Assembly (NCBI GenBank): GCA_029834535.1
Contig: JAQMWT010000051.1
Coordinates: 1-64,000 of the forward strand
DNA length: 64,000 bases
From: Chrysophaeum taylorii
Taxonomy: Eukaryota; Sar; Pelagophyceae; Pelagomonadales; Pelagomonadaceae
Direction: 5' to 3'
Below are positions 16,918-38,911 of this stretch, piece by piece. The notes below the pieces were generated by a model. It ran no database searches. It was not told where the DNA came from and saw only the letters and a program-made list of their open reading frames with translations. A program made the translations under genes and the position numbers. Position 1 is the stretch's first letter; every line of letters starts with the position of its first letter.

Positions 16918-17012
16918 TGTCTAGATACATACTATTATTTTGGCGCTTCATAAACGTGCATGTATATTGAGCCTTACCCTCACTAGTCCCACGTCACACA
17001 ATGTCTTAGATC

Positions 17013-17484
17013 TGCAGAGAAATCTGATGCCTCTTACCCTTATCCGTCCGTCGAGAGCGTGATCTCTTCCTTACCCTTCTTCTTCCTTTCCAGAGAGCTA
17101 CACTATTATGTGTGCGACACTGGAACATTTCACACCTATCTCTACACGAGGGTTTTCTCTCCGTAATACGGCTTTCCCTCTCTCCTTCTTTCCTTACCCT
17201 TCCGCCCTTTTATCTCAGATTATGAAGAACCCAATCTGAAGCTCTTTTCCAACGTGGAGTAGGCCTCCAGGTGCGTACCGTCGGGTACGGGGTTTTCTGT
17301 TTAATTGACAGAAACTTCGTTCCTCGTTGTCCGTGTAAACGCTTCTATGGGACCTAATGTCCTTAAGGAGTTAGGGCTTAAATCCCTATCTTGTGTAGTA
17401 GCATGTGACAAGCGGAATGGTCTGTACGCGCCTAAGACTGCACGCAGTCTCTACCATGTACCCGGAGAGGGTCAAATCTCTCCA
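17013..17484 (+). repeat. Copia-family LTR (472 bp)
   Basis: It starts TGCAGAGAAATCTG and ends CAAATCTCTCCA, the same length as 22741-23212. An open frame inside it (17305-17802) has no coding signature. Confidence 0.85.
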
Positions 17485-17498
17485 GGTTATGGGCCCAG
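17485..17498 (+). promoter_or_regulatory. Half-tRNA (initiator Met) primer binding site
   Basis: GGTTATGGGCCCAG directly after the LTR. It is complementary to the anticodon arm (CUGGGCCCAUAACC) of eukaryotic initiator tRNA-Met. Confidence 0.8.
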
Positions 17499-18365
17499 AT
17501 GCGTAGGTGTGTCAGCCCAACTGTGTTGTACGTCTAAATGGAGTGATCAATTTGCGCCTGATCACGAGTACAATGCGACAATGTGTTTGGCGGTGGTCTA
17601 CGTACATATTTGTTGTGTGACGGTATGTGCCCACCAGTTAATTTGGTTTGGGACGAGTTGGGTCGGTCACTGGTCATACCGCATAACCAATAAAATTAAA
17701 GATACAAGGCGGAAACTTGTACGGGTTTTCCCTTCCATTCCCCAACAAAAGACTGACTGCTCGAGAACTTCCATTCTCCAGTCTCAAGTCGCCTGTAAAT
17801 AGCATGTTGATTTGTTTGGTCTTGTCAATAAGCCCACGTTTAAAATAGCGTACTGTACATAGAACCCGCACTTGAGAAACCCTCATTCTTATGTGTCGAA
17901 TATGTCTATCCCTATAACCTATTTCTTAATAGGTCACAGTCATGTCAACAAAAAACAATATCCACCACGGATATCTACAAACAAGAACAAATCCTCGTTG
18001 ATAAGATTGGCGCAGGATTGCGTTTCCCGACGTTCACCAAGGTGAGCTTGCAAATTGAGGTGCTTCGCAGGCATAGACAAGTCCATATGTGGCTGCGTCG
18101 ATTCATATGAAGCTTAACCCGGAAAGCCCGAAAATCAACTTCTTGAACAAGAAGTTGATATCATCTTCGCTCAATGGAAAGCCGAACAAGTAAACGATTT
18201 AAACTTACCTGATGAAGATGCCCTGCCTGATCATCTTAAAACTTGGCACGTCAACTCATCGCATCAACTATCAGTTGATGTCCGTAATCGAGAACGACTC
18301 TACCAAGAGGACGCCGTTCGTCCCGAATTAAATGAGGATGTCAAACGTGCCGCACTTTATTGGAT

Positions 18366-18759
18366 ACCCGATGAACGGCTGGGAGAACGCTGGAGTTGGG
18401 CGATGCACCCTTGTCGAGATGCTTCGGGACGGAATGGCCGGCTTCGTGGGGAGGACCGTCGACGTGCCGAGCTTCTCGCGCTCGGAGAAAAGAGCACGTG
18501 GGAAGGGAGCACGGGTGCGAGACGAAGTGGTCCCACGAGGACGCCCGCCCCAGGCGGCAACCCGTCGACGAGATGAACGTTCGGGCAACTCGTTAGCCTG
18601 CCGTGGGAACGCCAGCGTGGTCCGGAGCCAGGGAAGTCCGTAGGGCCAGTCTGAGTGCCCCCACGGATGCGATGCGGGCCTCTGCCAACCTGTGCCTCTG
18701 TTAGCTTTCGGAGAATGTGGTCCCCCTTGAGCGAACACCGCTGTCCCCATGCCAGGTTA
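18366..18759. other. Unassigned GC-rich spacer
   Basis: Unlike the AT-richer copia sequence to its left. No gene recognised. It may contain decayed sequence of the copia remnant that follows. Confidence 0.35.
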
Positions 18760-19725
18760 GACCTGCCTGAAGAAATCTCCAGTATCGACGAAACCTGACT
18801 GTGGGAAGCTTTAGCGACCAATGAGCGTTGGCTGGGTGAAGCCATCGAGCGAATGCAGCTTCGGTCAGCTTGTTGCTGGGATGTATGCGCCTTCCTCGAC
18901 GTACGGCAACAACCTGAAGTGGATCTCCGCAAAGTGCTTGGCCGACGAAGCTGAAGGCTCGCCTCGGCCGCGGCACACGCAGGTCACGGCATTGATTATC
19001 GACACCGTCACCGGTTGCCAACATGGTACCGGTGCAGTACGCCGTCCAACCGTCGTGCAGTGGGAACAAGTTGGATGTCAGTCCGATCAAGCTCCCACCC
19101 CACCGATGGTCCAATCGTTTGCAAGGTCGCTCTTGGTATGGTTGCAAAGCTTGCGTAATTAGTGGATTTGGCACGCCTCGTCAATGAGTGGCCGTCCGCG
19201 GATCTCGTGGACTTGCCATTACGCTCGTGCTCGTTCACCGTCCCAACGTCCGTTCTGGTCGTTGATGATCTCTTGTGGCGCAGCCCGTCATGCATTGCCA
19301 TTACCAAGCCTACGCCGTTGCGTTACTGACGTCAGCCTTGATGTCACCTCTTACGTGGTCGCACACGCGTGCCGTCGGAGAACGCCTCACTCTTGCCAAT
19401 CCTGCTAGCCGTGATCCTTACCGAAATCGCTTCTCACAGTAAACCCGAATCACTCCCGCTCCCAAACATCGCGGCTGATTGTCCGGCTCCTGGTTAGACA
19501 GTCGCATGGCACGCTCCCTTTCGCCGTTTGTTGGCTGTGTCCCTTCTTCCATCATGCCGTCCTGACCTTGGTCCGCAATCAGGTGCGCGACACAAGGAAA
19601 GGCACGGCAGCTTGGCGCTTTATCCCCACGACGTTTCGGGCTCTCACGGCTTGCCTTGTTCAGGTCGCGATTGGACCCTTGTCGGGGTTACCGCTCCAGC
19701 TGGGCCGACGCCAAAGACGCCACGC
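18760..19725 (+). pseudogene. Decayed copia RT-RNase H remnant
   Basis: Interspersed similarity at the DNA level to unit III (49380-50560). Examples are GGTCAGCTTGTTGCTGGGATGT at 18861 (shortened in unit III), the run around TCTTGGTATGGTTGCAAAGC, CCCGCTCCCAAA near 19457, and CTCCAGCTGGGCCGACG at 19692, which encodes the RNase H DSSWAD motif. Reading frames are destroyed throughout. Confidence 0.7.
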
Positions 19726-21650
19726 GAGGGCCGCCCTTGACCCCGACGGCAACGTTGATCGGGTACAGTGCCTCAGAGAGCTCGGAGTGGAGGCTGCGAA
19801 CGAGGCACCGTCCAGTGGCACGGCGGCGGATGGTGCCAATGCCGATAGGTCGAACGTCAGGTGCTTGGTGCGGCGCGTCGTTTTTAAAGTATTACCGTGG
19901 TGGTTGAAGTAATACCAGTCAGGAAGAGCTCCACGAACGAACAAGGTCTCAAGGTTGTCGATTTTGTCCATCGCCGAGCGTGCCTTGACGTTGCTCGGGA
20001 AGGGCTGGGCGAAAACGGAGAGGAATTCATTGCGGCACTGGTCGGGGCCCACACCAGCCTTCGGCCGGAGCGTGCGGTAAGTTTCACGCAGGGCGACCGA
20101 GAGTGTGGCGAGCCCTTGCGGGTGGTTGGGGAATGTGTGAAGGTCCTCCTTGCGAGCAGGATGTTTGGACACGAGTTGGCGCATGACGTCTGGGTGGCAT
20201 GGGTCGGCGATGCCCAGGCTGGTGAGAATACGGCACGCCCGAGAGAGGTCGCCAGATTCAGCGAGTCGCAATGCACGAAGTGCGTCCGCGTCATCGTCGG
20301 GGGCCGCCCGTGAGCGTACATGGGAGCGCACGCGAGTCACGTCGTGGAGGTAGCCGTCAATGAGGAGGTCGTAACGCCCTGCGGCGAAGGCTGTAAAGCG
20401 GTCAGTGAGCACGTCGGGCCGACGGGCGCCGCCTCGTGGTGCTCGCCGAAGAAGTAGGCTGTGAAGGCTCATGTACCAAAGGAGGGCACGGTCACGAGCG
20501 TTATCGGAAGTGGCGTCTTCAAACCATGAACACACCTCGGCCATTGCGCTCGCCCATGCCTCGCGGAATTGGGCGGGAATGGTGCGAATGCAAGAGCACG
20601 GCGATATAATGAGGTCTTTGATGGAGACCTCGTCGATCGCAGAGCGCAAATCGCTCAGGTCACGTGGACGGCGTGTCGGGAGGGAGGGGGCTGGCCCGGA
20701 TGACGTAGGGTGGGCGGGGGCAACAGACGGTGGCGCCGAATGTGACCGAGGCCCAATGGGAGAAATGCCAGGAGACGCGCTCGTGGGGGCTGCAGCCATG
20801 ACAGGGGTGTTGCGGTGGCTGTTGGCAGGGGCAGGGGCGCGGCGGTTGCCGGCGGCAGCGGCGGGGGTGGAGGAGGTGCTAGTAGTGGGGGTGGTCCGGG
20901 TGCCAGCGGCAGGGGTGTGGCGGCTGGCTGTTGCATTCGCAGTGCGGTTGCCAGACGCAGTGGTGCGGCGGTTGCCAGCGGGAGGGGTGGTAGGGGTGTT
21001 GCGGGTGCCAGTGGATCGCGTGCGGGAGCCAATGTGGGAGAGGCGGGCGGCACGGGCAGCTTGAGCAGCGTGGGCGGCAGCGCGATGGGCGAGGTAAGCG
21101 TCGGCGCTGGCAGCAGCGGCGGCGGCCCGTCCCGTGTCGAGTTGGAGTGCCGCAGCAGCGGCAGCAGCAGCGTGCATAGCGGCGAGATGGCGTTCCGCAG
21201 CAGCAGCGGCTCGAGCGGCAAGGGCGGCGTCGCGCATACGCGCTCGAATGCGATATCGGGCGGTAGTGGCGGCAAGGGCTGCAGCAAGTGGGAAAATGCG
21301 GTGGGGTGCGGCAGCGCGGACCTGCGGGAGAGAGTGCACAGACACCCAGCGTTGATGAGGGCGGACCATGCGTATAGGACTGCGGCAGTTGGGGCACGGC
21401 GGAAGGCGCGCGCAGTTGGTGACGCCACGTCAGGGTCGCCTTGGTCGCCGGCGAGGTTGCTTAGCGCCCACTGACCAACGCAGGCGTGGTGCAGGACCAC
21501 GCGACAGCAGCGGACTTGGCAACGGGTAAAGCAAGGGCTGGAGCATATAGGACAAGCGCGGTCCCGGAGGTAGCTGACATAGCGGCCGGCCGTGTGGCGC
21601 AGGAAGCGGCGGATTATTGCCAGGGATCGACGAGCATGTAATCGTTTCCA
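19726..21650 (-). pseudogene. LINE-like (non-LTR) retroelement ORF, truncated
   Basis: Reading leftward from about 21650: a RING-like Cys cluster (CPICSSPCFTRCQVRCC ... HHACVGQW), a long Ala/Arg/Pro/Thr-rich low-complexity region (21370-20700), then a conserved domain with RALRLAESGDLSRACRILTS, VSKHPARKEDL and VGPDQCRNEFL typical of the region just before the RT of algal and fungal non-LTR elements. After a frameshift near 19880, RPIGIGTIRRR marks the start of the RT fingers. The rest of the RT is missing where it abuts the copia remnant. The frame 21369-19660 covers most of it. Confidence 0.6.
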
Positions 21651-21660
21651 GGCTCGAACT

Positions 21661-22637
21661 GTCCCTCGATTTAGGGTAAGGATCAGGTAGGCACGAGAGT
21701 AAGGATCAGGTAGGCGCGAGAGCCAGACAGTGATCCTCCAAGCCGTCTACGGCGACCTCGCAGACTATTTCCACGACCCGCGGCGGCTCTTTCAGCGCGC
21801 CATTCTCACGCCCCGTCGAAACGATGTTGTCGATGCTGACAACGCGCGCATGACCGCGGCCTTTTTTTCCCGGAGACGAGGCGTCGGAGTTCTTTTCGGC
21901 TGACTAGGCTGGGTCGGAAGACGACGCCTCGCTCTTTACAGTCGAGTTTTCGACTCCCTGACAACCAACGGCATGCTGACTTTGATCGCGAGCTTAAAGT
22001 CTTCGCAACCTCGACCCGTCGCACGGCCACTGCAACGGTACCAGATACATGATCGATCGTGTCGTGTCACCGAGGCTCCTCCAACCTGTACCCTTTAAGG
22101 CCCGCCTACGCCAAACGATCAACAAGAGCCAGGACCAGACGCCCCGCGAGGTCGGCGTCCTCTTGCCCAAGCCCGTCTTCTGCCACGTCCAGCTCTACGT
22201 GGCTCTCTGTCGATCGGCATCCCCGAGGATATACTCATCTGGGTCGACGACTCCACCCTACCCCACACGTGCTGCGCAATACCGATAAGCCCCCTCCCGG
22301 CGTCTACACGCGCACTATAGGTGAACTTACTGGGACCACGTGAACTTACTGGGGTTTGAGATTGGGACTAGGTGGACTGAGTGACCAGGTGAAACTGGGA
22401 CCAGGTGAACATACTGGGGTTTTCAGAGTAAAGGGTTTTTAGAGTAAACTCAAAGGTTGGCGGCGCGTGCGGACCAAAGCAGCTTAGATTGGCGGAGGCG
22501 AGAGCGACGAGCTCAAAGGAGTCGGTTAGAGCTAGGTGAACTTACGGACCAGGTGAACTTATATGAAACTTACTGGGATTAGGTGAACTTACTGGGGTTA
22601 GAGATTGGGACTAGGTGAACTTACTGGCCTGCACTTG
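21661..22637 (+). mobile_element. Helitron fragment C
   Basis: About 95% like copy A from GTCCCTCGATTTAGGG to GCACTTG. It encodes the same broken helicase C-terminus (INKSQDQTPREVGVLLPKPV). The 5' (GTCT)n end is missing. The 3' end lies at TACATACTATA, a site that is uninterrupted at 16924, so insertion was between A and T. Confidence 0.8.
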
Positions 22638-22740
22638 TACATACTATACTTTTGGCTCTTCAGAAACGTGCATGTAAAAAAACGTGCATGTATATTGAGC
22701 CTTACCTTCACTAGTCCCACGTCACACAATGTCTTAGATC

Positions 22741-23212
22741 TGCAGAGAAATCTGATGCCTCTTACCCTTATCCGTCCGTCGAGAGCGTGATCTCTTCCTT
22801 GCCCTTCTTCTTCCTTTCCAGAGAGCTACACTATTATGTGTGCGACACTGGAACATTTCACACCTATCTCTACACGAGGGTTTTCTCTCCGTAATACGGC
22901 TTTCCCTCTCTCCTTCTTTCCTTACCCTTCCGCCCTTTTATCTCAGATTATGAAGAACCCAATCTGAAGCTCTTTTCCAACATGGAGTAGGCCTCCAGGT
23001 GCGTACCGTCGGGTACGGGGTTTTCTGTTTAATTAACAGAGACTTCGTTCCTCGTTGTCCGTGTAAACGCTTCTATGGGACCTAATGTCCTTAAGGAGTT
23101 AGGGCTTAAATCCCTATCTTGTGTAGTAGCATGTGACAAGCGGAATGGTCTGTACGCGCCTAAGACTGCACGCAGTCTCTACCATGTACCCGGAGAGGGT
23201 CAAATCTCTCCA
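22741..23212 (+). repeat. 5' LTR of copia unit I
   Basis: 472 bp, TGCAGAGAAATC...CAAATCTCTCCA. The two 3' LTRs (34532, 46644) start at T and jump to CCAGAGAGC, lacking about 75 bp of the 5' part present here. Confidence 0.88.
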
Positions 23213-23226
23213 GGTTATGGGCCCAG
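23213..23226 (+). promoter_or_regulatory. Half-tRNA (initiator Met) primer binding site, unit I
   Basis: GGTTATGGGCCCAG starts at the base after the LTR CA. It pairs with the initiator tRNA-Met anticodon stem-loop rather than the CCA end, as known for Drosophila copia and yeast Ty5. Confidence 0.82.
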
Positions 23227-23696
23227 ATGCGTAGGTGTGTCAGCCCAACTGTGTCGTACGTCTAAATGGAGTGATCAATTTGCGCCTGATCACGAGTACA
23301 ATGCGACAATGTGTTTGGCGGTGGTCTACTGTACATATTTGTTGTGTGACGGTATGTGCCCACCAGTTAATTTGGTTTGTGACCGAGTTGGGTCGGTCAC
23401 TGGTCATATGCACTCGCATAACCAATAAAATTAAAATTTTTCCTATACAAGCCGCGGAAACTTGTGCGGGTTTTTCCTTCCATTCCCCAACAAAAGACTG
23501 ACTGCTCGAGAACTAATCCATTCTCCAGTCTCAAGTCACCCTGTTTAAAATAGCATGTTGATTTGTTTGGTCTTGTCGATAAGCCCACGTTTAAAATAGC
23601 GTACTGTACATAGAACCCGCACTTGAGAAACCCCTCATTCTTATGTGTCGAATATGTCTATCAATCCTATAACCTATTTCTTAATAGGTCACAGTC

Positions 23697-25036
23697 ATGT
23701 CAAAACAAAAAAACAATATCCACCACGGATATCTACAAACAAGAACGAATCCTCGTTGATAAGATTAGCGCAGGATTGCGTTTCCAAGACAATTCAACCA
23801 AGGTGAGCTTGCAAATTGAGGTGCTTCGCAGGCATATGACAAGTCCATATGTGGACGCGTTATTCTGCTTCGATTCATATGAAGCTTAAACCCGGAATGC
23901 TCCGGAATATAATCAACTTCTTGAACAAGAAGTTGATATCATCTTCGCTCAATGGAAAGCCGAACAAGTAAGCGATTTAAACTTACCTGATGAAGATGCC
24001 CTGCCTGATCATCTTAAAACTTGGCACGTCAACTCATCGCATCAACTATCAGTTGATGTCCGTATTAATCTAGAACGACTTTACTACCGAGAGTCGTACA
24101 GTCTCGTTCGTCCCGAATTAAATGAGGATGTCAAACGTGTCCTCACTTTATTAAATACCCGATTCCCTAAATCAATTGTGTATGATTCATCTCTAACTAA
24201 CATGTCCTTTACAGGTCTCTCTAATGCCGACTGGGTCAAACACTGCGAAACTTATGCTGGTTTCTTGTACACATTCTTTAACTTGGAATCGCAAGAAAAA
24301 CCAGCACTCGCTGTGTGGCCTCAATTAAAGAAGATTTATGCAATTACTGCACATCCAAATAAACTACGTGCAGTAATGCTTTTAGCTTAACATTACTATG
24401 AGACAGTGTCATGTACAGATGTTACTGAGCTTAAATTTCAGTTTAATCGAATGTCTTTAAATGTAGATTGGTATGCCCATGTATTTGCCGAACAACTCCT
24501 TGCCTTCCAATCTCAGGCAAAGCAATTAAATAATGATGAAGCATCAATCCAATTTAATAACTCCATAATCTTTATTGGAATGGTGTAAACTCTACGAGAC
24601 ATGCTCTGGTAACAACTCGAGTCACGATCCCGAATTGTTAAAGCTAGTTGATCCTAACGACGTTCGTCCACTATTGGAATTCTTGTTAAAGATATACAAT
24701 GAAACAAAGTTTTCCTCTAACCGACGCTTGGATAAACCCGCTTCCTGGATCCCTTACATCCCTGGTACTACCGCTACCAAGCCACCTAAAGTATTATTGA
24801 TGGATACTATTCATCAATCCCACGACCCTCTAAACAATGTTTACTCGTTGTTAGCTACTGAACCTTTATAGTCTGGCTTCAACGCTCGTAAGCTTCGTAA
24901 TGCAAAAGACAAAGCATCGACAATTTTACCTCGTGACACATCGTACTATCGTCCACCCTCAAATTATAACACCAAAGGTACCAGCTTCGATCGTCCTGTC
25001 TACTCATCTTCCTCTAACCGCAATGCACGCTCTAAT
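23697..25036 (+). pseudogene. gag: Copia unit I gag, frameshifted
   Basis: An ATG at 23697 is followed within 65 nt by a frame change. The continuing frames read KQERILVDKISAGLRF, LLEQEVDIIFAQWKAEQV, RPELNEDVKRVLTLLNTRF, SNADWVKHCETYAGFLYTFF and LQFQFNRMSLN-like segments up to about 24870. Internal stops and shifts occur near 23760, 23889, 24390 and 24588. It is mostly helical and Leu-rich, as copia Gag usually is. No CCHC knuckle was seen. The same region is partly present at 17950-18365. Confidence 0.7.
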
Positions 25037-26254
25037 ATGTCTCTTATGGACCGGGCTACTTATCAAGTTGATTGTCTTCGCCACCTGTTTGGTAAATTAC
25101 AGGAAGCGAATCCCAACCCTCATACCGACTCTAAAATGGTACAGGTGGAAATGAAAAGCTTGTTGAGTACCCTCTGGACACCCGCTTCTCAAGCTTCGAC
25201 ACAGTCCTTAGATCCTGACGAAGCCACCCAAGTTCATCTCTACTTATCTCGAGTTGATACCATGTCCAATACCATATCGAACCTCTTAGGAGCCGACAAG
25301 GAATCTCTTGTTTCAGAAGAAAAGTATCAGACTGAAACATCTGCGCCTGAAGCGTCCCCCAGTGATGCGGAGCAGAGGGGGACTGCTGATAAAGAGAAAA
25401 TGTTCCACACTTCTCTGTCCATTAAAGATGATGATATCGATAACATCCCTCAGCCGCTATTGCACAACATAAACGCTAAAGCTCAGAATGCTACCATTCG
25501 TCGTCAAGCTCGGGAAACTTCTTCGCACTCCGAGCTTCCCAGTAATCAACCTAACGAAGATACTGAAGATGGCACAGATCCCCCTGTGTTGTTACCAAAA
25601 TTAAACACTGGTTTTACACTCGTCGTCGTGCCTTCCGAACAAACGCAAAGTTTCATGACGCAGTACGTGTTTGGTCAAAGCTCAACGCATGCCTGTTATG
25701 CAACAATGCTTAAACTGTACAACGAGTACAATTTGCCGCTAATGACTACGCCAGGATATGCTGACACATGTGCTTCTCAACATGTAATTAACTTTAAACG
25801 TTATGCTGATCCTATCCACATCGCAAAGCTACCCGAGTCCTTATCACCTGCTATCCAGACTGCTACGGATACGCAGAGAATCACACGTGCTATGATTATA
25901 AGGACCGTCATTCCCGCTCTCCCAAAGCATCCAAATGTGGGATATGTAAAGCTAGACGTTGCGCTTTTTCTACCCAAGCAAAACGACCATATCGATCCCG
26001 ATCTGCACATCATCAGTATGACTCAATGGGGAGAAGATAAACTTGGTATACATCTTTGTGGAATTGAATTTAAAGGACAATCATCTATCCAGAGTAAAAT
26101 TGACGATAATGTTAAGATTACTTTGTTTAGACTCAGTAACCTGTTACCGATTCTACCAATTTGCTCGCTACAACAAGCAAAAGCGCGTAAAATGGAACTT
26201 CGCTCACTACAGTTCAGGTTATGTGCCTTTAACGAACAACGCGAAATGCTTTAA
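25037..26254 (+). pseudogene. Copia unit I Gag C-terminus and aspartic-protease-like domain
   Basis: 405 codons. The first 200 residues are hydrophilic linker. Near 25755 a retropepsin-like site reads YADTCASQHVINF, with Cys in place of the Gly of the usual DTGAS, followed by hydrophobic strands (AMIIRTVIPALP, VKLDVALFLP, ISMTQWGEDKLGIHLCGIEF). It ends at a stop at 26254, after which several short frames lead into the methyltransferase. The Cys substitution may inactivate the protease or be tolerated. Similarity is by pattern and position only. Confidence 0.6.
25355..25382 (+). other. Internal polypurine/hairpin motif, copy 1
   Basis: TCCCCC and GGGGGA arms enclose AGTGATGCGGAGCAGA. The same motif recurs at 29548-29575 and 38012-38039, and the GAGGGGG core resembles the PPT at 34525. 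Confidence 0.65.
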
Positions 26255-26386
26255 CTATATTCCACCCTCATGGAACGCGTAATTTACGTCCCATGGCTTA
26301 AAACCATCCTGGAGTCAATGCATTCGCAACTGCCTTACATACGCAAGCATTTCCCACCTCCCGTATGACACAAGGTTACCACACGT

Positions 26387-28336
26387 TTGCTCCATACAGC
26401 AACTTCATCTCCTAGCCCACGAATACCTACAGTAACTCTACTTTGCTCTGGGATGTGCACTCCTGCATTCTTGGCTTGCGCTTTTAATGACTTGCAAATC
26501 AACATCGACGTTAAAGTTCTTGTTGAGAGCGACGACAATATCACGCACGTGCTACGAAGACGTTTTGGTAATTCCATCGAAGTTTTCCCATCCCTACCTA
26601 AGTTTTTGACGTATCTCCTTCGAGCATCGGACGTTGAACGTGCACGATATTACACTGACATAGTGGAATTGACATCACCATGCACAAATCGCAACATAAT
26701 CAATGGGAGATCCATTTCCACCTTCGAGCGCGATATGGATGATTCCTTGTTTCCAAGTGCTCTAAGTGTACTTGAGCTTTTAAAGCCGCTTGTTCTTTTC
26801 ATGGAAATGACACCACCACACTCCGCATCGTATGAAGATCATATACGAGTTGCTAATCTCATCTTCTCAACGATGTACTATACGGTGGATATATGTGACC
26901 GATTTCCATACTATCTATGTGGAGATTATCAAGCCAGAGAAAGATGGATCCTCGTCGCACGCAAATATAACACCGGCCCTCTTGATCTGTTTTCATGGCC
27001 TAATAAACGAGTCACTTCCTTTCTGGATATTGCAGAGCACGCTAATTCCATCAGTCGCAAGTTAATAGTCGACGAACCTTGGACGCAGGTCCTTCCTGAC
27101 ATACCACTCGTGTCCACACCTAAAAGCTACAGTACTTTCAGTCGTAGAGGATCCGTGCGCTTAACTGTGACTGAGCTTGAAACCTTAACTATGCTGTTCC
27201 TTCGTCTGCACTCTAACAAAACAGTCGAACATCCCATTCAATATGAAATGGAGGGCATTTCTAACTTTCGCCTGGGATTCTTGACTAATTCAAGAAAACC
27301 ACGTGCTTGCATGAGATCCCCTATTGAACTCAAAGCTTTTGTGCTCCTCTACAATATTATGGGACGATTGTTCCCTAAATCCATCACATTGCCTGTGTCC
27401 TTTCGTATTACAACTATCGAATCTAACCAACCATCTCACAGGTTATTCTTGAATAAACCCTCTACTTCATCCATCATTTACATCACCGGTGGAAGACATA
27501 CAGGCGGCGACATAACAGTTTCTAACTCTTCTTGTAAATACCAGGCACATATAAATGCTTTTGGCGAAACCTACACCCTCCTAACGCATGATGCCGGAAT
27601 CGATAAGACTGCTTCTCTCGAACCAGTTACCGGTTTTCTTTGGCTTTGTCAAGCATACCATAATAATAATGAAAATCAAGACACGCGTCGTCTAGTACAA
27701 GCATTGGTTCCCTATACTTCTCCTGTATTTCACAATTCTTTCGTCTTCTACCCTCAGGAAAATCGTCTCGAATTTATCGACAAAATGTTTGCTTTAAGTG
27801 ACATGCATTTGTCCCAAAGCAGATATTTGGGCTTTATAACATCAAGCGATAGGAAGATGGGTGCCAAAGTTCATTCTATATACACTCCCACTCCTACCAT
27901 TCGTGGATTTGTTAACATGCTGGTGTACGATCCACGACTCGACCGCATTCGACACTACTCAACTCGCGAATTGGCACGCGCCAATAACTTCACAGCGTAC
28001 CAAATCAAATTTCTTTTGTCTTTGTCCCCTGACCTATGCTGTGATATCATCGCAAATGCTATTCCAGCTGGAACATATCATACAATTTATAAACATTTGT
28101 GTCACCTTGTCTATGACTTGCGTATATTAATGCTATCACCATCGTTTGACCCTGATCATGCTTCTCTAACCAAAAACTATAGGTCAACCTTCTTCACAAA
28201 TATATTCCCAACAGATACATCCTTAACATTACACCAGAGTTCCATTACAATGTTCTACATCTCCAATAAAAAACTCTATGTTGTGATACTATCGCTTCTA
28301 ACCACGAACTTCCTTCTTTTCATATTGATTCAGTAG
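26387..28336 (+). CDS. Retrotransposon-encoded cytosine-C5 DNA methyltransferase domain
   Basis: A 649-codon open frame between protease and integrase. It shows the C5-methyltransferase motifs in order: I (LCSGMCTPAFLA, residues 19-30), II acidic (VLVESDD, 44-50), IV with the catalytic PC (ELTSPCTNRN, Cys99), VI (LFMEMT, Glu140), VIII (QARERW, 182-187), a long variable target-recognition stretch (about 200-515), IX (STRELARANNF, 525-535) and X (IIANAIPAGTY, 554-564). The last 70 residues belong to the approach to integrase. The predicted first codon is TTG and the first ATG lies inside motif I, so it is probably translated as part of the polyprotein. It would transfer methyl groups from S-adenosylmethionine to cytosine, perhaps on the element's own DNA. 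Confidence 0.85.
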   Translation: MLHTATSSPSPRIPTVTLLCSGMCTPAFLACAFNDLQINIDVKVLVESDDNITHVLRRRFGNSIEVFPSLPKFLTYLLRASDVERARYYTDIVELTSPCTNRNIINGRSISTFERDMDDSLFPSALSVLELLKPLVLFMEMTPPHSASYEDHIRVANLIFSTMYYTVDICDRFPYYLCGDYQARERWILVARKYNTGPLDLFSWPNKRVTSFLDIAEHANSISRKLIVDEPWTQVLPDIPLVSTPKSYSTFSRRGSVRLTVTELETLTMLFLRLHSNKTVEHPIQYEMEGISNFRLGFLTNSRKPRACMRSPIELKAFVLLYNIMGRLFPKSITLPVSFRITTIESNQPSHRLFLNKPSTSSIIYITGGRHTGGDITVSNSSCKYQAHINAFGETYTLLTHDAGIDKTASLEPVTGFLWLCQAYHNNNENQDTRRLVQALVPYTSPVFHNSFVFYPQENRLEFIDKMFALSDMHLSQSRYLGFITSSDRKMGAKVHSIYTPTPTIRGFVNMLVYDPRLDRIRHYSTRELARANNFTAYQIKFLLSLSPDLCCDIIANAIPAGTYHTIYKHLCHLVYDLRILMLSPSFDPDHASLTKNYRSTFFTNIFPTDTSLTLHQSSITMFYISNKKLYVVILSLLTTNFLLFILIQ

Positions 28337-29706
28337 CTCATGCCTTCCTCTCTAAAACCTCATCCGCAGATATATCATCTCCGACTAAAGAAAAACAAAT
28401 ACCCCTTATAACGCCAAGACAGCTCCATGAGAAGCATGCGCCCTTCGATAAGAAAGTCCATGCCAGGGGCACCCTCGCATTCGAGATGCGCAACAACGAG
28501 CTACCAATTTTCACAACATCCACCATTATAGTGATTCTCAAGCTACAAAAGCTGTCCAGGTTATTGCCAGCCCTGGACACCACCCATCTGACGTACCCTA
28601 CCGTAAGTTCTGTGTGGATTGTACGATTCATAAAAAAACGCTTTCCTCATCCACACCACCTTATCAAGCAACCATCATTCGAAAAAAATTTTCAACCTGG
28701 TGAAGCCTGGGCATGTGACGGTGGTTACGTATATGTTCTCTCGGAATGGGGATCCTTTCGACATATCATTGTTTTTAAGTGTCTCATTTCTAAATTTTTG
28801 TAAGTGTACTTTTGTCGTAGTACTAACTCTAGCGAAGTTTGTAACGCCCTTGAGTTTGTCCGCAACTTTTGCTCTACTTATGTTCGTGTACAACTAAAAC
28901 AAGTCTATTTTGATTCCTTTAAACCCTATTTATCTCAGCATGCTACAACCCCCTTCCGTGTGGAGCATGGTATTAATATGTCCGTGTCCCTCCCTTACTT
29001 ACATGTCTTTTATCATGAAGTCGAAGCCGCTGTTGGTCACATAGCCACTGCCGCGTCTACACGACTCCGGCATATGCTTAATGTATCATATAAAGGGCAC
29101 CCCCCAACAGATCCGGCACCGCACTACCCGTGGGCTGTTATACATGCCATCCAATCGTATAATCTCCTCCCTAACGTTTCCCTCGAACGTATTTACAATA
29201 AAGTCCTAAGCCCCCAACAAGTTTTGTTAGACCAATGTAATGTTCCCCAACAAGACTACCTCAAACCTTTTGGTTCTGTTTGTTATCTGCATTTGGAACC
29301 TAACGAATTTCATAAATATGAACCTCGATGTCGTCCCTACATCTACTTCTGTGATGCTAACGTTATAAGCCCTTTAATAACACCCCATGTTAATCATTTA
29401 GCCGATGTTGTCCTTAATCCTGAAAACGGTCAAGTCCGTGTTTCCTCTAAACTGACTTTTCCTCATCTTATTTCTAAATCTCCTCCTGATTATGAACAGC
29501 ATCCACCTCCCGCACCTTCACCCGACATTCCCTTCTCTGTTCACAGCACCCCCAATGATGCGGCGCAGAGGGGGAATGCTATGCCCACCAACACTGACCA
29601 CGAGAGGGGGACTCCTTCTTCTCATCTCCATGCTCCCTCTCCCGCTCCCGCATGTGCTCCAGCTGCTTCTGGACCCGCTACTTCCGCCACCACACCTACA
29701 TCTTAA
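28337..29706 (+). pseudogene. Copia unit I integrase, frameshifted
   Basis: Zinc-binding remnants KHAPFDKKVH and HHPSDVPYRKFCVDC (near 28430 and 28567-28615) are followed by the DDE core. The residues are D in AWACDGGYV (28714), D in VYFDSF (28909) and E in YHEVEAAVG (29010-29035). The C-terminal part has PWAVIHAIQSYNLLPN, KPFGSVCYLHLEP and YEPRCRPYIYF, the copia integrase signature. Frame changes occur near 28270, 28480 and 28800. It ends in a Pro/Ser-rich linker. Confidence 0.8.
29548..29575 (+). other. Internal polypurine/hairpin motif, copy 2
   Basis: ACCCCCAATGATGCGGCGCA followed by GAGGGGGA, nearly the same as at 25355. A second purine tract GAGAGGGGGA follows at about 29612. Confidence 0.65.
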
Positions 29707-30430
29707 GTGTCTTCCGACACTCTGCCACTTTTACCATCTTGTCGGTCTCTCTATTCCCAGGATGTCCGCCGTCTCACCCGTGGTCCTCATCACCCTCAGC
29801 CTCGTCGCAAAACCAATCTCAAGGATGTTCTTACTCGTATTGCTTCGCCTACAGTCGCCGCTTATAAACAAGCCGGTGGTGCGCTTGCCGACTTCGAGTA
29901 TGACCTCTCCAAGCAGTACATAACGTTCTGCGACCCCACCCTCCACTCCCTTCATCTTGCTCATGGCATCCACTGGACGGCTATACCTCCAGAGGGGAAT
30001 TTACACCATCCCTTCATCACCATGTGCACCAAGCGATCTCACAGTCCTCTTCAGTTATGTGTCATAGGAGCCATAGCCACCCATCGCCTGATACTCCTCA
30101 TGTTCACTTCTGCGACGACGTCAACCTTGCAGACTTTCACCTTCCTCAAGCTCTCGTTCATTTAATTTCTGAACATGCGCACGCCTTTCAAGTTCCTCCC
30201 GCTCAATATGTTTATGCTTTGTTCACGCCCCACTCCATTTTGGATCATAATGACGCTTCTTATGGTGCCTCCGAGCCTCATCTCTCCGCCATCGAAGACT
30301 ATATCACCGTGCAATCGCATTACATTGAGGCCCACCTTGGTGATGCTCCTCTACTAGTTGTTCAACTCGTCGAAGATCCGATCACGCTCATCCTCACGAT
30401 AATGTCGCTTCTTGCGCAATTACTCATCTG
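29707..30430 (+). pseudogene. Integrase-RT linker, unit I
   Basis: Matches the continuous linker of unit II (about 38170-38910): LYSQDV, RRKTNLKDVLTRIASPTV, AYKQAGG and ADFEYDLSKQYITFCDP. Split by a TAA at about 29704 and a shift near 30000. No known domain. Confidence 0.6.
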
Positions 30431-30460
30431 ACGACGACTCATGACCCCAGCACGGTTGGT

Positions 30461-32267
30461 TTGGACGAGTACAAGACTCAAGCCAAAGATATCAAAATTG
30501 ATGAATATGAGTTGAGCTGCCTCAAAGGTCTCTCAGACGCTGATCGCAAAGCTTATGTTGCTGCCATCTCCAAGGAGATTTTTGATATTGTTAAGTTTGG
30601 CTGCTTTAAACTAGCGCTGCCAATGGTCAACTCAAAGCCTATTGACACCCGCCTCGTCCTACGTATAAAAACCAACGCTGCTGGTCAGTACATTAAACAT
30701 AAAGCACGCCTGGTCCTACGAGGATTCTTAGCCTCTGGGCACCGATTTCTTCAACACATTCAGCCCTATGGCACAGCTTACCGGCATCCGTTGTGTTTTG
30801 GCGCTAGCAGCTCATCTGCGACTTCCCGTCTACCATGTCGACGTCCCTAACGCTTTTGTTCAAGCTCCCATCGATTCTCATGTCTATGTCAAACTGCCAC
30901 AAGGCATTTACCTTCTCGATCCCGAAGATACTAAATACCAAGGCCGTCGTCTCCCAAAGCTACTTAAATCTCTCTATGGATTACGTCAGAGCCCTGCCCT
31001 TTGGAATCAAACCATAAACGGCTTCTTTGATTCATTAGGCTATACACGATTTCGAACAGACACATGCATTTACGCTAAAGTCCAAGCTGACGCTACATTT
31101 CTAATTTGCACGCTCTCAGTAGACGACGTCGTCATTACTTGTACTTCGGAAACTCTACGTCGTGAGTTCCAGCAAGCCCCTAAAAAGGAATACTCAGTCG
31201 ACACCTTCGAAGAAGTCCATACTCTCCTAGGCATGCGCATAACGCGTACAACTGATGGCTCTATATCACTGGACTGTCAGGCTAAACTTGATGCATTGTT
31301 CGAAGAGTACCCCATTTTAATGCAGTTACGTCCCACTTCCACACCGATGTCACCATCAACCACGTATAAAACTGGAGAGCCATCTTCTGATATGGACAAG
31401 TTCATCCTTCATACCTTCTCTACTCTACTCGGCAAGCTCACGTTTGTCCAATTGGCCTGTCGCCCCGATCTATCACAAAGTCTTAGTCGTTGCTCTCGAG
31501 GAATGCATAATCCAGCATTTCTACATGTTCAAGTACTAACAGGAACGCTCCGCTACTTGCGCAAGCCCGAAAATCGCAATCTTCGCCTCTGGTACTACTC
31601 TGGTTCTTCCGCTCTAATGGACCATCTTCGACTTCTTATCGGTAATCGTACTGACATGGCCACCATGTTGGACTACACTAAAGAACAAGTTAATTCAGGT
31701 AATTTTGATCCACTGGTCGCATTCGTTGATGCCGATAATGCACCCTCTTATGAACAAGACCGCAAATCTACAACCGGCTACGCTATCTTTTTGTTTGGTT
31801 CTCTCATCACTTGGAAGTCTAAGCTGCAACCTATTACAGCTACTTCTACGCATGAGAGTGAACTTATCGCCCTCAATATGTGTGCCGATGATGTGGTCTG
31901 GTTACACAAATTGCTAACGGAAATGGCTTTCGTTATAAATCCTCAATTCTATCTCCGCCAACTTCCAGGGAAAGACCTGCTACTAGATTATGATGCTCAC
32001 GACAATCCCCTCCCATCGGACATGTCGTTCATACGCAACAGTCCTATACTTGGAGATTCGGCCTCTGCTATTCATCTATCAAATAACCCCGACAGCGCGA
32101 CTAAGGCTAAAGCTATCAGCACACGCTGGTTCCGTATACGCGACTACGTACAGTTAATACGCATACGTCTACATCATGTTTCCGGTACCCATAATATCGC
32201 CGATGGAATTACCAAACCCGTTGGAGCTCCACTCTTCAGCAGATTTCGCGCGTTACTCGGCTTATAA
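30461..32267 (+). pseudogene. Copia unit I reverse transcriptase and RNase H
   Basis: Two frames, 30461-30850 and 30768-32267, joined by a shift near 30740-30780. RT landmarks are FDIVKFGCFKLAL, KHKARLVLRGF, YHVDVPNAFVQAPI, LKSLYGLRQSPALWNQ and the catalytic LSVDDVVI (VDD, near 31118). RNase H landmarks are FVDADNAPSYEQDRKSTTGY, ITWKSKLQPITATSTHESEL, LGDSASAIHLSNNP and HHVSGTHNIADGITKP. The RT-RNase H frame of 499 codons is uninterrupted, so only one mutation separates this region from an open state. Confidence 0.88.
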
Positions 32268-32410
32268 CAACCCATAGCTCAACAAGATGGTTAATCATTA
32301 CCCTTCTTTATGTCCGAAATGACTTTATACTAACCCTGCTATGTAAAGGAATACTGGCTCGCTAAAATGTGAAATGCTACATAAAATGTGATGTGGAGAT
32401 TCCTCTCATG

Positions 32411-34414
32411 ATGAATCCCACTAAAAACAAAGATGCTGCGAGCCGACGCCACTCTACCATGAACCGTGGTCGCGGTGGTGGTATACTGTCACTGTCCCCA
32501 CCTTTTAATGCTCTAACGCCAAGCGTTGCACCGACTAGTTCCCCTAATCGGGAACATCAAACCTATTTGTCGGTGGCGCAAGGACATCAATCTACGCCCG
32601 TGACGCCCAAGGCGCCCAAGACAGCTGCCCAACAACAGTGTAAATCACAAGCAGCAAAGTCTGAGTATTTCCTGCTCAAACACGCTAAGTTTGACGTATT
32701 AGCGATGATGTCCGGGAACGTTACTACTTTTGGTTCATCGCCACCCAACTTTCTTATTCCGCAACACAAGGACCCCCAGTGCTGGCTTAAGTCTTTGCAG
32801 CAGCTGCTTACGGAAGCACAACAGACAGAGTTTGTAGACAACGTACAATATCTCAGTTCATTGTTGTGTGTTAAAAATAAGCGTATTCGAAACGCCCCTG
32901 CTATATCTCCCAACGAGGGAATACGTCTTCATCGCTTCCCACCCTTTAAAGGGGTTGTCAAAGTACATGTGACGTGTACAAAGTGCCACAACAAAACTGA
33001 TATGCCAGGCACACCAGTCGTCCTCATCATTTGTAATGAAGATGAACTTAAAACTGACAGGATTCGCCAAATCATCGAGGATCATCTCGCGTCTGAGCAA
33101 CACGCATCCACTGCTTTGACGTACCGCGCCCTTTCTTCTTGTTGATTTGTGCGCTGTGCGATCGGTCACACCATGGGATAGCCTTAATTCGCAACAGTCA
33201 GCAGCCATTCCAACTGTCTTGTTTTAATGATCCGGCTGCTCACACTAGAGCTATAATCCTCCGCCTTGGAAAATCAATTGCTATTAATAAGCAGCTCAAA
33301 GAGGCAATCATGCAGACTGCGACATCCCTTAAAGTTGATGCCTCTAAAGTCATTGTTAACCCTGACGATAGCACCATGCCTTTACTTCAGCTGCCCTTTA
33401 TCTCGAGTGCAAATCTCGAGATTCTTGTAGCAGCTTGGTCTCTGTTACATTCTGTTGAAGATAAAGTACGTGTAGTAACCAACCCGAATGAGCTGCTTAA
33501 CGTGCCTGTCGAACGCTTCGTTGATGATGTTTCCCACCAATTTAACGCAATCTCCTTTGAGACGTTACCGCCAATGCTTAATTATTTTCGCCAACTATCA
33601 CCTGTACAGCAAGCTGCCTTTGAAAATGTGCTAATCCAAGTTGGCTACCCTCATAATTGATGTCTTTTCAGATGACACTTCTTCTGAGGATGTTTCACCA
33701 GCGCCGATCGACAATCCACCCGCTGAACCCACGCTAAATAAAGCTAACGATAATATGGCTGAATCTTTACATCAATTAAAAGAAGAGATTCGGTCTTTAT
33801 CCTTGCGTCTCACTAATACCGAACAGCAATTGATGGCGCGAGATCAACAACTATCGCTTGCATTAACATCTCTCACACAGATGCAAGAGACTTACGAAAA
33901 TTTAAACACCCAAGTGATTGAGAACATCAAGCATGTGTCTCTATTAGACAACATCTTGTCAAGTCTTCAGATGCATCAGGACATCATAATCCCGTCCTCT
34001 GCTGTATTTGTCCATATCATTTCTCGGTCACTTATCTCATCTATTGGACAGCTCCCTCCAGATACGTATAATGAGGCTCAGCAAGTTCAAATCGACGCAG
34101 CAGCTCATCATCTCCACACAGCTATGTCTGATGCAAATGATCGTGTTATTCCTGCATTGGGTCTACACGCTCCTACACCCGATGCTGCTATGTCTTTCCT
34201 TTCGTCTGTCATATCACCCTTGGTCACCTTGAGTGATGCAATGACTACGCACAATATCAACACTACTAACGACCTCACCTCTGATGTTCATAATTCGTCT
34301 TCTCCAGAGTTAAATGAACTGGACGATAATAGCGAAGATGAATTGGACCATACATCGGATGTGGGTACTGATACAGCTTCTGTGCGTAACATTACAACAC
34401 GCTCGACATCATAA
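32411..34414 (+). pseudogene. ORF3 of copia family, unit I copy
   Basis: An extra gene between RNase H and the 3' LTR. The start MNPTKNKDAASRR matches unit II. Frames 32369-33145, 33139-33660 and 33641-34414 together give about 670 residues with two shifts. Features are a basic N-terminus, Cys pairs CTKC (near 32980) and CALC (33146), SCFNDPAAHTRAIILR, a helical middle (LLQLPFISSANLEILVAAW), a coiled coil (LHQLKEEIRSLSLRLTNTEQ) and an acidic C-terminus. The Cys/His pattern suggests zinc binding. There is no signal peptide or membrane span, so it is not an obvious env. Function unknown. Confidence 0.75.
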
Positions 34415-34524
34415 TTAATTTGTCCTGTTCTGTTGTTGTTTGTTCCATTGTCCACTGTTTTCATGTATATTGCACAAGTTCCGCCTCAAGAGCTTCTAAA
34501 ATGCATAAACCGCTTCCACACGTT

Positions 34525-34531
34525 GAGGGGG
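34525..34531 (+). other. Polypurine tract before 3' LTR, unit I
   Basis: GAGGGGG immediately precedes the LTR start T at 34532. The same context occurs at 46636-46643 and, on the minus strand, at 62250-62243. Confidence 0.7.
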
Positions 34532-34930
34532 TCCAGAGAGCTACACTATTATGTGTGCGACACTTGCACATTTTCACACCTATCTCTACACGAGGGTTTT
34601 CTCTCCGTAATACGGCTTTCCCTCTTTCCTTCCTTCCTTACCCTTCCGGCCTTTTATTTTCATGACTATGAACAACCCAGTCTGAAGCTATTTTCCAACA
34701 TGGAGTCGGCCTCCAGGTGCGTACCGTCGGGTACGGGGTTTTCTGTTTAATTAACAGAGACTTCGTTCCCCGTTGTCAGTGTAAACGCTTCTATGGGACT
34801 TAATGTCCTTAAGGAGTTAGGGCCTAAATCCCTACCTTGTGTAGTAGCATGTGACAAGCGGAATGGTCGGTACACGCCTAAGACTGCACGCAGTCTCTAC
34901 CATGTACCCGGTGAGGGTCAAATCTCTCCA
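34532..34930 (+). repeat. Shared LTR between copia units I and II
   Basis: 399 bp, TCCAGAGAGC...CAAATCTCTCCA, lacking the first part of the 472-bp LTR. Unit II coding sequence begins at the next base. Confidence 0.85.
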
Positions 34931-35141: not shown

Positions 35142-36730
35142 TTGCTCCATACGGTAACTACGTCTCCAAGTTCGCGAACACCTACTGTAACTCCACTTTG
35201 CTCCGGGATGTCCACTCCTGCCTTCTTGGCTTGCGCTTCCAATGACTTGCAAATCAACATCAACGTTAAAATTCTTGTTGAGAGCGACGAAAATCGTACG
35301 CATATGCTACGAAGACGTTTTGGTACTTCCATCGAAGTTTTCCCGTCACTACCCGAGTTCCTTACATATCTACATCGAGCATCGGACACTGAACGTGCAA
35401 GATATTATACTGATATAGTGGAATTGACATCCCCATGCACCAATCGCAACATAATCAACGGGAGATCCTTTTCGACTTTCGAGCGCGATATGGGCGACTC
35501 CTTGTTTCCAAGTGCTCTAAGTGTACTTGAGCTCTTAAAGCCCCTCATTCTTTTTATGGAGATGACGCCACCACTCTCTGCATCGTATGAAGATCATATA
35601 CGAGTTGCCAATCTCATCTTCTCTACGATGAACTATACGGTTGATATATGTGATCGATTTCCATGTTATTTGTGTGGAGATTATCAAGCCAGAGAAATAT
35701 GGATCCTTGTTGCTCGCAAATATAATACCGGCCATCTAGATTTGCTTTCCTGGCCTAATAAACGAGTCACTTCCTTCCTGGACATTGCCGATCACGCTAG
35801 CTCCATCAGTCGCAAGTTAATTGTCGACGAACCTTGGACGCAGGTTTTCTCTGACATGCCATTTGTGTCCATACCCAAAACTTACAGCAACTTCAGTCGC
35901 ACAGGATCCGTTCGCTTAACAGTTACTGAGCTCGAAACTTTAACCATGTTGTTTCTTCGTCTTCACTCGAACAAAACAGTCGAACATCCAAGTCAAGATG
36001 AAATGGAGGGTATTTCAAACTTTCGCTTAGGATTCTTAGCGAATTCGAGAAGGCCCCTCTCTTGAATGAGCTCGCCTATTGAACTCAAGGCTTTTGTGCT
36101 CCTCTATAATATTATGGGACGCTTGTTCCCAAAATCTACCACATTACCTGTGTCCTTTCGTATTACAACTATCGAATCTAACCAACCATCTCACAGGTTA
36201 TTCTTAAATAAATCTTCTACTTCCCCCATCATTTACATCACTGGTGGAAGACACACAGGTGGAGACATCATAGTTTCCAACTCTTCTTCTAAATACCAGG
36301 CACACATAAATGTATTTGGCGAAACCTACATCTTCCAAACACATGATACAGGAATCGATAAGACTACTTCTCTTACTCCTGTTACCGGCTTTCTTTGGTT
36401 ATGTCGATCGCATTCGACATTACTCAACTCGCGAATTGGCACGCGCCAATAATTTCACAGCGTACCAAATTAATTTCCTTCTGTCTTTGTCCCCGGACCT
36501 ATGCTGTGACATAATCGCTAATGCTATTCCGGCTGGAGCCTATCATGTAATCTATAAACATTTGTGTCAGATTGTCTATGACTTGCGTAAATTAACGTTA
36601 TCACAATCCTTTGACCATGATCACGCTTCTCTAACCAAAAACTACAGGTCAACCTTTTTCACGAAATTCTTTCCTACTGACACATCCTTAATATTACACC
36701 AGAGTTCCATTACAATGTTATACATCTCTA
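35142..36730 (+). pseudogene. Cytosine-C5 DNA methyltransferase, unit II copy
   Basis: Same motifs as unit I: I (LCSGMSTPAFLA), IV (ELTSPCTNRN), VI (LFMEMT), VIII (QAREIW, with the second Arg lost), IX (STRELARANNF) and X (IIANAIPAGAY). There is an in-frame TGA at 36063. About 300 bp of the target-recognition region, corresponding to unit I 27646-27945, is deleted near 36408. Motifs IX-X are read in the frame 36310-37170, which continues without a stop into the integrase zinc-binding region. This shows that the methyltransferase and integrase were one polyprotein. Confidence 0.82.
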
Positions 36731-38911
36731 ATAAAATCTTTCCATGTTGTGATGATCTCGTTTCTAACTACGAACTTCCACTATTTCATCTCGATTCAGT
36801 GGCTCACGTCTCCCTCTCTAACACTTCATCCGCAGACATACCATCTCCTACAAAAACGATACATATTCCTCTCACAACTCCAAGACAGTTACATGAGAAA
36901 CATGCACCCTTTAACAGAAAAGTTCATCCCAGAGGCACCCTCGCGTTTCGAGATGCTCCGCGACGTGCTACCAGTTTTCACAATATACATCATTCCAGTG
37001 ATTCCCAAGCTATAAAAGCTGTTCAGGTTATTCCCAGTCCGGGATATCATCCTTCTGATGTACCCTACCGTAAGTTCGGTGTGGATTGTACTTCACTTTT
37101 AAAAAAAGCTTTCCTCATCCACATCATCTTACCAAGCAACCATCATTCGAAAAGTTTTTCAACCTGGTGAGGCCTGGGCATGTGATGGTGGTTACGTATC
37201 TGTCCTCTCGGAATGGGGATCTTTTCGCCATATCATTGTCTTTAAGTGTCTCATTTCTAAATTTTTGTTAGTGTACTTTTGTCGTACCACCAATTCTAGC
37301 GAATTTTGCAATGCCCTCGAGTTTGTTCGCAACTTTTGCTCTACTTATGTTCATGTACAATTAAAACAAATTTATTGTGATTCTTTTTAAACCTTGCTTA
37401 TCTCAACATGTTACTACTCTCTTTCGTGTTGAGCACGGTATTAATATGTCTGCTTCCCCCCCTTACATGTTTTTAATCATGAAGTAGAAGCCGCTGTTGG
37501 TCATATAGCAACTGCCGCGTCTACACGACTCCGGCATATGCTTAATGTATCCTATAAAGGTCACCCCCTAACAGATCCGGCACCACACTGCCCGTGGGCT
37601 GTTATACATGCTGTCCAATCGTATAATCTCCTTCCTAACGTTTCCCTCGAACGTATTTATAATAAAGTCCTAAGCCCCCAACAAGTTTTGTTGGATCAAT
37701 GTAATGTTCCCCAACAAGATACCGTCAAACCTTTTGGTTCTGTTTGTTATCTACATTTGGAATCCAATGAATTTCATGAATATGAACCTCGATGTCGTCC
37801 TTACATCTACTTATGTGGTGCTAATGTTATCAACCCATTAATCACACCCCATGTCAGCCATTTAGCTGATGTTGTCCTTAATCCTGAGAACGGCCAAGTC
37901 CGTGTTTCTTCTAAACTTACCTTTCCTCATCTTATTTCTAAATCACCTCCTGATTATGAACAACATCCCCCACCTGCACCTTCACCCGACATCCCCTTCT
38001 CTGTTCACATCACCCCCAATGATGCGGCGCAGAGGGGGAATGCTATGTCCACCGACATTGAACACGAGAGGGGGGCTCCTTCTTCTCTTGCCCATGCTCC
38101 TTCTCCCGTTCCCGCATGTGCTCCAGCCGCCTCTACACCCGCTGCTTCTGTCACCACACCTCCTACATCTGAAGTGTCCTCCAACACTTTGCCCCATTTA
38201 CCGTCTTATCTGTCACTCTATTCCCAGGATGTCCTTAGTCTCAACCGTGGTCCTCATCACCCTCAACCTCGTCGCAAGACTAATCTCAAGGATGTTCTTA
38301 CTCGTATTGCTTCGCCAACTGTTGCCGCTTATAAACAAGCTGGTGGTACGCTTGCTGACTTCAAGTATGACCTCTCCAAGCAGTATATCACTTTCTGCGA
38401 TCCCACCCTCCACTCCCTTCATCTTGCTCATGGCGTCCACTGGACGGCTATACCTCCAGGGGGGAAATTTACACCATCCCTTCATCATCATGTTCACCAA
38501 GCGCTTTCCCAATCTTCTTCCGCTATGTGTCATATGAGCCTTAGCCACCCATCGACGGATGCCACTCCTGTTCATCTCTTCGACGACTTCAGCCTTGCAG
38601 ACTGTCACCTTCCTCGTGCTCTCGTTCATCTTATTTCTGAACACTCTCAAGCTTTTCAAGTTCCTCCCGCTCAATATGCTTATGCTTTGCTCACACCCCA
38701 TTCCGTTTTGGATCATAATGATGCTTCTTATGGTGCCTCCGAGCCTCACCTCTCCGCCATCGAAGACTACATCACCGTGCAATCTCATTACATTGAGGCC
38801 CACTTTGGAGATGATCCTCTACTAGTTGTTCAACTTGTCGAAGAGCCCGATCACGCTCACATTAACGATAAGGTCGCTTCTTGCGCAATCACCCATCTTA
38901 CCAATGCCTAA
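36731..38911 (+). pseudogene. Copia unit II integrase and integrase-RT linker
   Basis: The N-terminal zinc-binding part (KHAPFNRKVH, HPSDVPYRKFGVDC, with one Cys changed to Gly) is in the frame ending at 37170. The core around 37170-37540 is broken by shifts. From 37538 to 38911 a single open frame reads PWAVIHAVQSYNLLPN, KPFGSVCYLHLES, YEPRCRPYIYL and then the long linker with RRKTNLKDVLTRIASPTV. It shows the linker was continuous, unlike in unit I. Confidence 0.78.
38012..38039 (+). other. Internal polypurine/hairpin motif, unit II copy
   Basis: ACCCCCAATGATGCGGCGCA followed by GAGGGGGA, identical in form to 29548-29575. Confidence 0.65.

Follow-up and report, generated by a model that had tools for sequence, protein, structure and literature searches.

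Retrotransposons that carry their own C5-cytosine DNA methyltransferases (DNMTs) have been described among LINE, DIRS and Gypsy elements (PMC5890265, de Mendoza 2018); that paper reports that retrotransposon DNMTs methylate CG de novo and proposes self-methylation of retrotranscribed DNA. The 64,000-nucleotide stretch of the pelagophyte alga Chrysophaeum taylorii analysed here (the window; contig JAQMWT010000051.1) contains a long terminal repeat (LTR) retrotransposon, unit I, in which a real frame at 26387-28336, lying between the putative protease and the integrase region, most plausibly encodes a DNMT domain of high divergence. A reverse transcriptase of the RVT_2 type downstream of the integrase marks unit I, by its sequence, as a Copia (Ty1/copia) element. 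A sequence-only reading of the window had proposed such a family, with dinoflagellate and charophyte retrotransposons as precedents; the Symbiodinium and Klebsormidium nitens cases of PMC5890265 are such precedents, and the Copia family with a C5-methyltransferase-type domain between protease (PR) and integrase (IN) is supported through a chain of relatives.

Several systems described in PMC5890265 can be set beside this locus. KnitGypsy-Dnmt3 of K. nitens is likewise an LTR retrotransposon with a C5-methyltransferase in its Pol polyprotein, and its copies are intronless and have a ratio of nonsynonymous to synonymous substitution (Ka/Ks) below 0.2, as here; it is, however, a Gypsy element with an enzyme of the Dnmt3 class, whereas the element in the window is Copia by its RVT_2 domain and has its domain between PR and IN. 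SymbioDIRS-Dnmt3, reported to methylate CG, and SymbioLINE-Dnmt, both of Symbiodinium, resemble the present family in their many copies and purifying selection but belong to DIRS and LINE elements. Other DIRS elements with Dam-like adenine methyltransferases are also methyltransferase-bearing retrotransposons, although their enzyme acts on adenine, is structurally unrelated and sits in another element class. The Copia elements of Symbiodinium are stated in the same paper to have no DNMT domain. A survey (PMC12344493) assigns some DNMT3s to 'LTR Copia and DIRS' elements with reference to PMC5890265, which describes Gypsy; the wording may be a slip, or may be based on supplements. The accessible text of PMC9998398 contains no DNMT-bearing Copia element, and no DNMT-bearing Copia element from an ochrophyte was found by title or opening of the abstract in the literature, mostly open-access. 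DNMT-bearing elements so far are mainly non-Copia, and a Copia case in an ochrophyte-like alga is new. Ordinary Ty1/copia elements share with unit I the PR-IN-RT order (RT, reverse transcriptase), the RVT_2 domain, the LTRs and a tRNA primer site; the usual Ty1/copia element is not known to have a DNMT domain, and unit I departs from the ordinary form in that domain, in its extra 3' frames and in a UGA codon between PR and the rest.

The frame between protease and integrase

The open reading frame listing of the window gives a stop-to-stop frame of 655 residues at 26369-28336 on the plus strand; the protein followed here, P0001, is the 649 residues read from a TTG inside it, at 26387. Six motifs, which fit motifs I, IV, VI, VIII, IX and X of C5-cytosine methyltransferases, stand in order, with a long variable stretch separating motif VIII from the IX-like motif.

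26387..28336, plus strand: C5-cytosine methyltransferase-like domain, from motifs, relatives, fold comparison and profile match
about 26435-26476, plus strand: motif I, TVTLLCSG..FLA, with E47
26678-26683, plus strand: motif IV with its PC, TSPC, C99
26804-26806, plus strand: motif VI, Glu140 (E140) in FMEMTPP
26930-26944, plus strand: motif VIII, QARER in GDYQARERW, residues 182-186
27953-28021, plus strand: IX-like motif, YSTRELARANNF
28052-28096, plus strand: X-like motif, IANAIPAGTY

Motif VI reads EMT where ENV would stand. P0001 belongs to a family here called family A, and over its last 20 or so residues it loses register with the majority of the other copies. The order of motifs proposed from the sequence alone is present in P0001, and it goes beyond chance because motifs I to VIII recur in relatives that share 38-39% identity and because 22/22 stop-free copies keep the key residues.

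The enzyme family of the domain appears well supported through these relatives, not by a direct match of P0001 to PF00145. A search of 5.8 billion proteins found one relative, P0002 (MMETSP, 392 residues), with 39% identity to P0001 over 55% of the query, and an alignment-based search reached a second, P0003 (ENA, 269 residues), with 38% identity. P0003 lies above the PF00145 cut-off of 22 bits (23.0 bits, E 6.1e-5) and P0002 slightly below it (20.2 bits, E 4.4e-4). When family A is combined with P0002 and P0003, the resulting profile aligns with family B, a second family of the same genome described below, over 491 collinear columns (E 4.8e-6, probability 86%); the match falls to E 0.0013 and probability 19% when P0003 is left out. 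A light-harvesting protein used as control reaches E 0.49, and a DNMT5-like host protein E 0.047 and probability 1%. Among PDB sequences, a profile of family A, P0002 and family B finds 11 at E<=1, all of them C5-methyltransferases (8yf3 at 6.7e-5 and ten HhaI forms at 0.021-0.71), and the family B profile alone finds two, at 0.052 and 0.16. The predicted model of the P0001 domain, of low confidence, resembles C5-methyltransferases, which fill 46 of 50 Foldseek rows, and contains the Rossmann methyltransferase core; the fold matches mix DNMT1, DNMT3, DNMT2, DNMT5 and bacterial enzymes and favour no single class. The fold comparison covers family A, the predicted model of family B being too low in confidence for it.

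Other results weigh against this assignment. P0001 has nothing listed at E<=10 in Pfam, among PDB sequences or in NCBIfam, and nine of ten further family A copies scanned against Pfam are without any match, the tenth (L026) having a weak one to PF00145 (E 0.21, 11.4 bits). Two profiles without family B (A1 and A5) found no methyltransferase in the PDB, so that the PDB profile matches are carried by family B. The sequence-only reading had regarded the lack of a PF00145 match, or of the fold, as refuting: P0001 alone does lack the match, its 38% relative P0003 has one above the cut-off, and the fold is present in the weak predicted model.

The remaining parts of unit I (22817-34930) are as follows.

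22817..23212, plus strand: 5' LTR, 396 nt, 94.5% identical to 34532-34930
23213..23231, plus strand: primer binding site (PBS) GGTTATGGGCCCAGATGCG, directly 3' of the 5' LTR
23890..24390, plus strand: gag-region frame fragment, an open frame without Pfam match, named by position
24872..26254, plus strand: C-terminal part of gag and putative aspartic protease, motif ADTCAS
26366..26368, plus strand: UGA followed by C, in frame between gag-PR and DNMT-IN-RT
28270..29706, plus strand: integrase region, two frames (broken in this copy), with SH3_retrovirus
30732..32267, plus strand: reverse transcriptase (RVT_2, PF07727, E 1.7e-31), with RNase H (RH) by position
32366-33145, 33097-33660 and 33635-34414, plus strand: extra 3' reading frames, open
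34525..34531, plus strand: polypurine tract GAGGGGG, a purine run preceding the 3' LTR
34532..34930, plus strand: 3' LTR, 399 nt, pairing with the 5' LTR

Paired LTRs, PBS and polypurine tract are all present, and the PBS would be complementary to the anticodon arm of the initiator tRNA-Met. The protease is named from its DTCAS motif, as 24872-26254 has no Pfam protease match; the protease motif stands upstream of the DNMT in 25/30 copies. The SH3_retrovirus match, in 28804-29706, is slightly below its cut-off (E 1.8e-5), and the integrase domain rve is weak in another copy, L053 (E 0.0092, below cut-off). The extra 3' reading frame that had been proposed is borne out by the frames that follow the RT region at 32366-34414; part of the frame 32366-33145 recurs within unit II, where 42110-42409 is 68% identical to it. 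One frame within 32366-34414 has a weak match to FAM76 (E 8.4e-4, below cut-off). No target-site duplication was found at unit I, where the 5 bp flanking the LTRs are TCCTT and CAAGC, and an Rfam scan of the window gave no match. Across the genome searched (70.8 Mb, 697 contigs) there are at least 40 long matches to LTR plus PBS (40 of 708 candidates scored), and the window contributes two of these. A listed LTR plus PBS lies 3.0-4.6 kb upstream in 15 of the 73 listed DNMT rows, and a listed RT lies downstream in 18 of the 73 (17 loci).

Copy number, selection and an in-frame UGA

In the same genome P0001 has at least 73 matches, with 68 of 1577 candidates scored, P0002 at least 105 and P0003 at least 143, with 143 of 923 candidates scored. 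Such domains thus occur at no fewer than 143 places, 95 of which do not overlap the P0001 match list. Fifty-two of those 95 places are 39-41% identical to P0003, and 47 of the 48 that overlap P0001 matches are 36-38% identical; P0003 places such as C42:52304, C589:40383 and C127:111809, with frames of up to 1691 residues, may perhaps form a third family.

Thirty family A loci (L001-L030) were fetched, of which 22 are stop-free across the matched region; the eight with stops were excluded from the selection and residue counts. Ka/Ks over the 231 pairs of stop-free copies is 0.12, against 1.18 and 1.99 when the same copies are read in the wrong frames as a control, and the DNMT domain of family A is under purifying selection. 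Ten residues (G22, E47, C99, E140, Q182, R184, R186, E528, N557 and P560) are unchanged in 22/22 copies, and P98, the proline preceding the catalytic cysteine, is kept in 21/22; the catalytic residues, namely the PC cysteine, the motif VI glutamate and the QxRxR of motif VIII, are present in P0002 and P0003 too. Motifs VIII and IX are separated by about 300 residues, and selection on that region (Ka/Ks 0.112) is similar to that on the core (0.109); in the seven copies open through the integrase Ka/Ks is 0.09 for the DNMT and 0.056 for IN (21 pairs). The elements show little CpG decay, a weak sign where methylation is concerned; the marks may therefore be absent, in another context, or slow to mutate.

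A TGA, always followed by C, lies 18 nt ahead of the DNMT match at the same place (position 1480-1482 of the fetched loci) in 28/30 copies and is displaced by 1-3 nt in the other two. In 17/30 copies the protease motif lies in a frame that stays open, and in phase with the DNMT, up to this TGA; the window copy has an additional stop earlier in that frame. The first methionine of P0001 is residue 23, and as no methionine codon stands between the UGA and motif I, readthrough of the UGA would be the simplest route to expression of DNMT-IN-RT. The position of the UGA-C suggests stop-codon readthrough in a Copia element, and no hairpin was found 3' of the UGA (z 0.28).

A second Copia family, host enzymes and neighbouring repeats

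A search of the genome with PF00145 gave at least 57 rows (123 of 474 candidates scored), of which twenty were fetched. Eighteen of these (L033-L050) form one family by tblastn, family B; among the 37 unfetched rows, 23 coincide with a listed family B place or come within 600 nt of one, and 14 are without assignment. Family B is a second Copia family, richer in GC, in which a domain above the PF00145 cut-off precedes integrase and RVT_2; it comprises at least 84 rows in at least 74 distinct loci, with 74 of 786 candidates scored. In L052 (contig C96; L052:1460-9955) a single frame of 1952 residues carries PF00145 (E 1.1e-7), then rve (E 0.006, 17.2 bits, below cut-off), then RVT_2 (E 1.6e-38); the copy is not whole, in that a stop after RT ends the frame and the RNase H part lies beyond it, and its terminal repeats of about 200 nt are 89% identical and about 9.6 kb apart. 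Unlike family A, family B has gag and Pol overlapping in different frames. Its putative protease is represented by a DGGAS motif without Pfam match, its motif VI reads VENV, and an exact QxRxR is absent, SKTRY standing instead. With about 20% identity between them, A and B are best described, from their sequences, as two anciently diverged Copia families, and a single capture common to both is likely. A protein search with family B scored none of 7997 candidates at E<=0.001, and when the two families were searched against viral contigs, A gave 24 pattern matches and B 27, none of them relatives.

Two PF00145 genes of the genome are host-like. The best PDB match of L031, a DNMT2, is human DNMT2 (E 5e-39), and that of L032, which is DNMT5-like, is a chain of 7r76 (E 3e-143); the titles of its sister entries, 7r77 and 7r78, name DNMT5 complexes. 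The 57 listed PF00145 rows, 14 of which are without assignment, include no other recognised host DNMT. The genome also has at least 84 matches to light-harvesting proteins; L062 comes nearest to fucoxanthin chlorophyll a/c proteins (228.6 bits) and L059 to other light-harvesting proteins, so that an ochrophyte host is likely. A pattern for 18S found no match.

Downstream of unit I the window holds a second, broken copy of the domain:

35142..36735, plus strand: unit II DNMT copy, with residues 1-424 at 35142-36413 and 518-628 at 36403-36735

About 93 residues are missing from it between these two parts, and there is an internal stop at 36065. The sequence-only reading had this copy keep the same motifs; that is so for part of them, but the domain is not whole and motif VIII is QAREI, not QARER. 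Further repeats occur within and beyond unit II (39136-44500, up to 97.6% identical). Duplicated stretches at 16952-18372 and 22680-24163 (94% identical) carry LTR, PBS and flank of unit I, another pair lies at 11852-12830 and 21660-22638 (97% identical), and a minus-strand frame of 589 residues occupies a GC-rich stretch at 19660-21429.

A model for the enzyme and its rivals

The explanation we favour, and consider probable, is that a C5-methyltransferase domain has been built into the Pol polyprotein of Copia families A and B of this chlorophyll a/c alga and methylates the element's own complementary DNA (cDNA). In family A, ribosomes would make gag-PR, and a minority would cross the leaky in-frame UGA, adding DNMT-IN-RT-RH. 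The methyltransferase would thus be made in small amount and packaged with integrase and reverse transcriptase; in the particle or pre-integration complex, cytosines of the new cDNA would most likely be methylated, and the cDNA would enter the nucleus already marked. The DNMT5-like host enzyme could then maintain the marks, enzymes of its class being reportedly maintenance-only in Cryptococcus. A bolder proposal, that the Copia-borne enzymes (more than 100 copies, with UGA readthrough) are the main writer of new cytosine methylation in this genome and that L032 merely copies marks, we regard as doubtful.

An active enzyme might instead act on RNA, for example on genomic RNA or the tRNA primer. 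The PBS resembles the complement of the initiator tRNA anticodon arm, and the fold matches include chains of DNMT2, an enzyme that modifies a tRNA in its anticodon loop. A LINE DNMT tested in yeast gave no DNA methylation, and RNA was suggested as its substrate, according to PMC5890265. Against RNA, the region between motifs VIII and IX is selected as strongly as the core, which fits a target-recognition domain, and we judge this substrate unlikely. Just as unlikely, in our estimate, is a DNMT fold that serves the polyprotein in structure or targeting, binding nucleic acid or S-adenosylmethionine without methylation: extreme divergence, the lack of a direct PF00145 match in P0001 and the EMT in place of ENV agree with it, but the PC cysteine, the glutamate and QxRxR are invariant in 22/22 copies, P0002 and P0003, and family B has VENV, though SKTRY instead of the exact QxRxR.

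More distant readings deny the domain its identity or its place. That the motifs arose by chance in an unrelated domain would accord with the missing Pfam and PDB sequence matches of P0001, with the failure of profiles lacking family B to find a PDB methyltransferase, and with the low confidence of the predicted model; the PF00145 score of P0003, the collinear match to family B, the Foldseek ranks and the invariant motif residues make this very improbable. A host DNMT gene or contaminant caught between broken repeats, or a chimeric assembly, might be suspected from the broken state of units I and II and the complexity of the neighbouring repeats, but this reading is refuted by the copy number, with at least 143 dispersed places, and by frames continuous with the integrase; relatives in MMETSP and ENA data also speak against it.

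The short list of retrotransposons with a cytosine methyltransferase domain is extended here to Copia elements and, probably, to ochrophyte algae. That such an enzyme recurs in LTR elements suggests that it benefits them, even though their usual fate under methylation is silencing. Families A and B, which diverged long ago and share one genome, together with a UGA just before the enzyme, provide material on which pre-methylation of cDNA can be tested.
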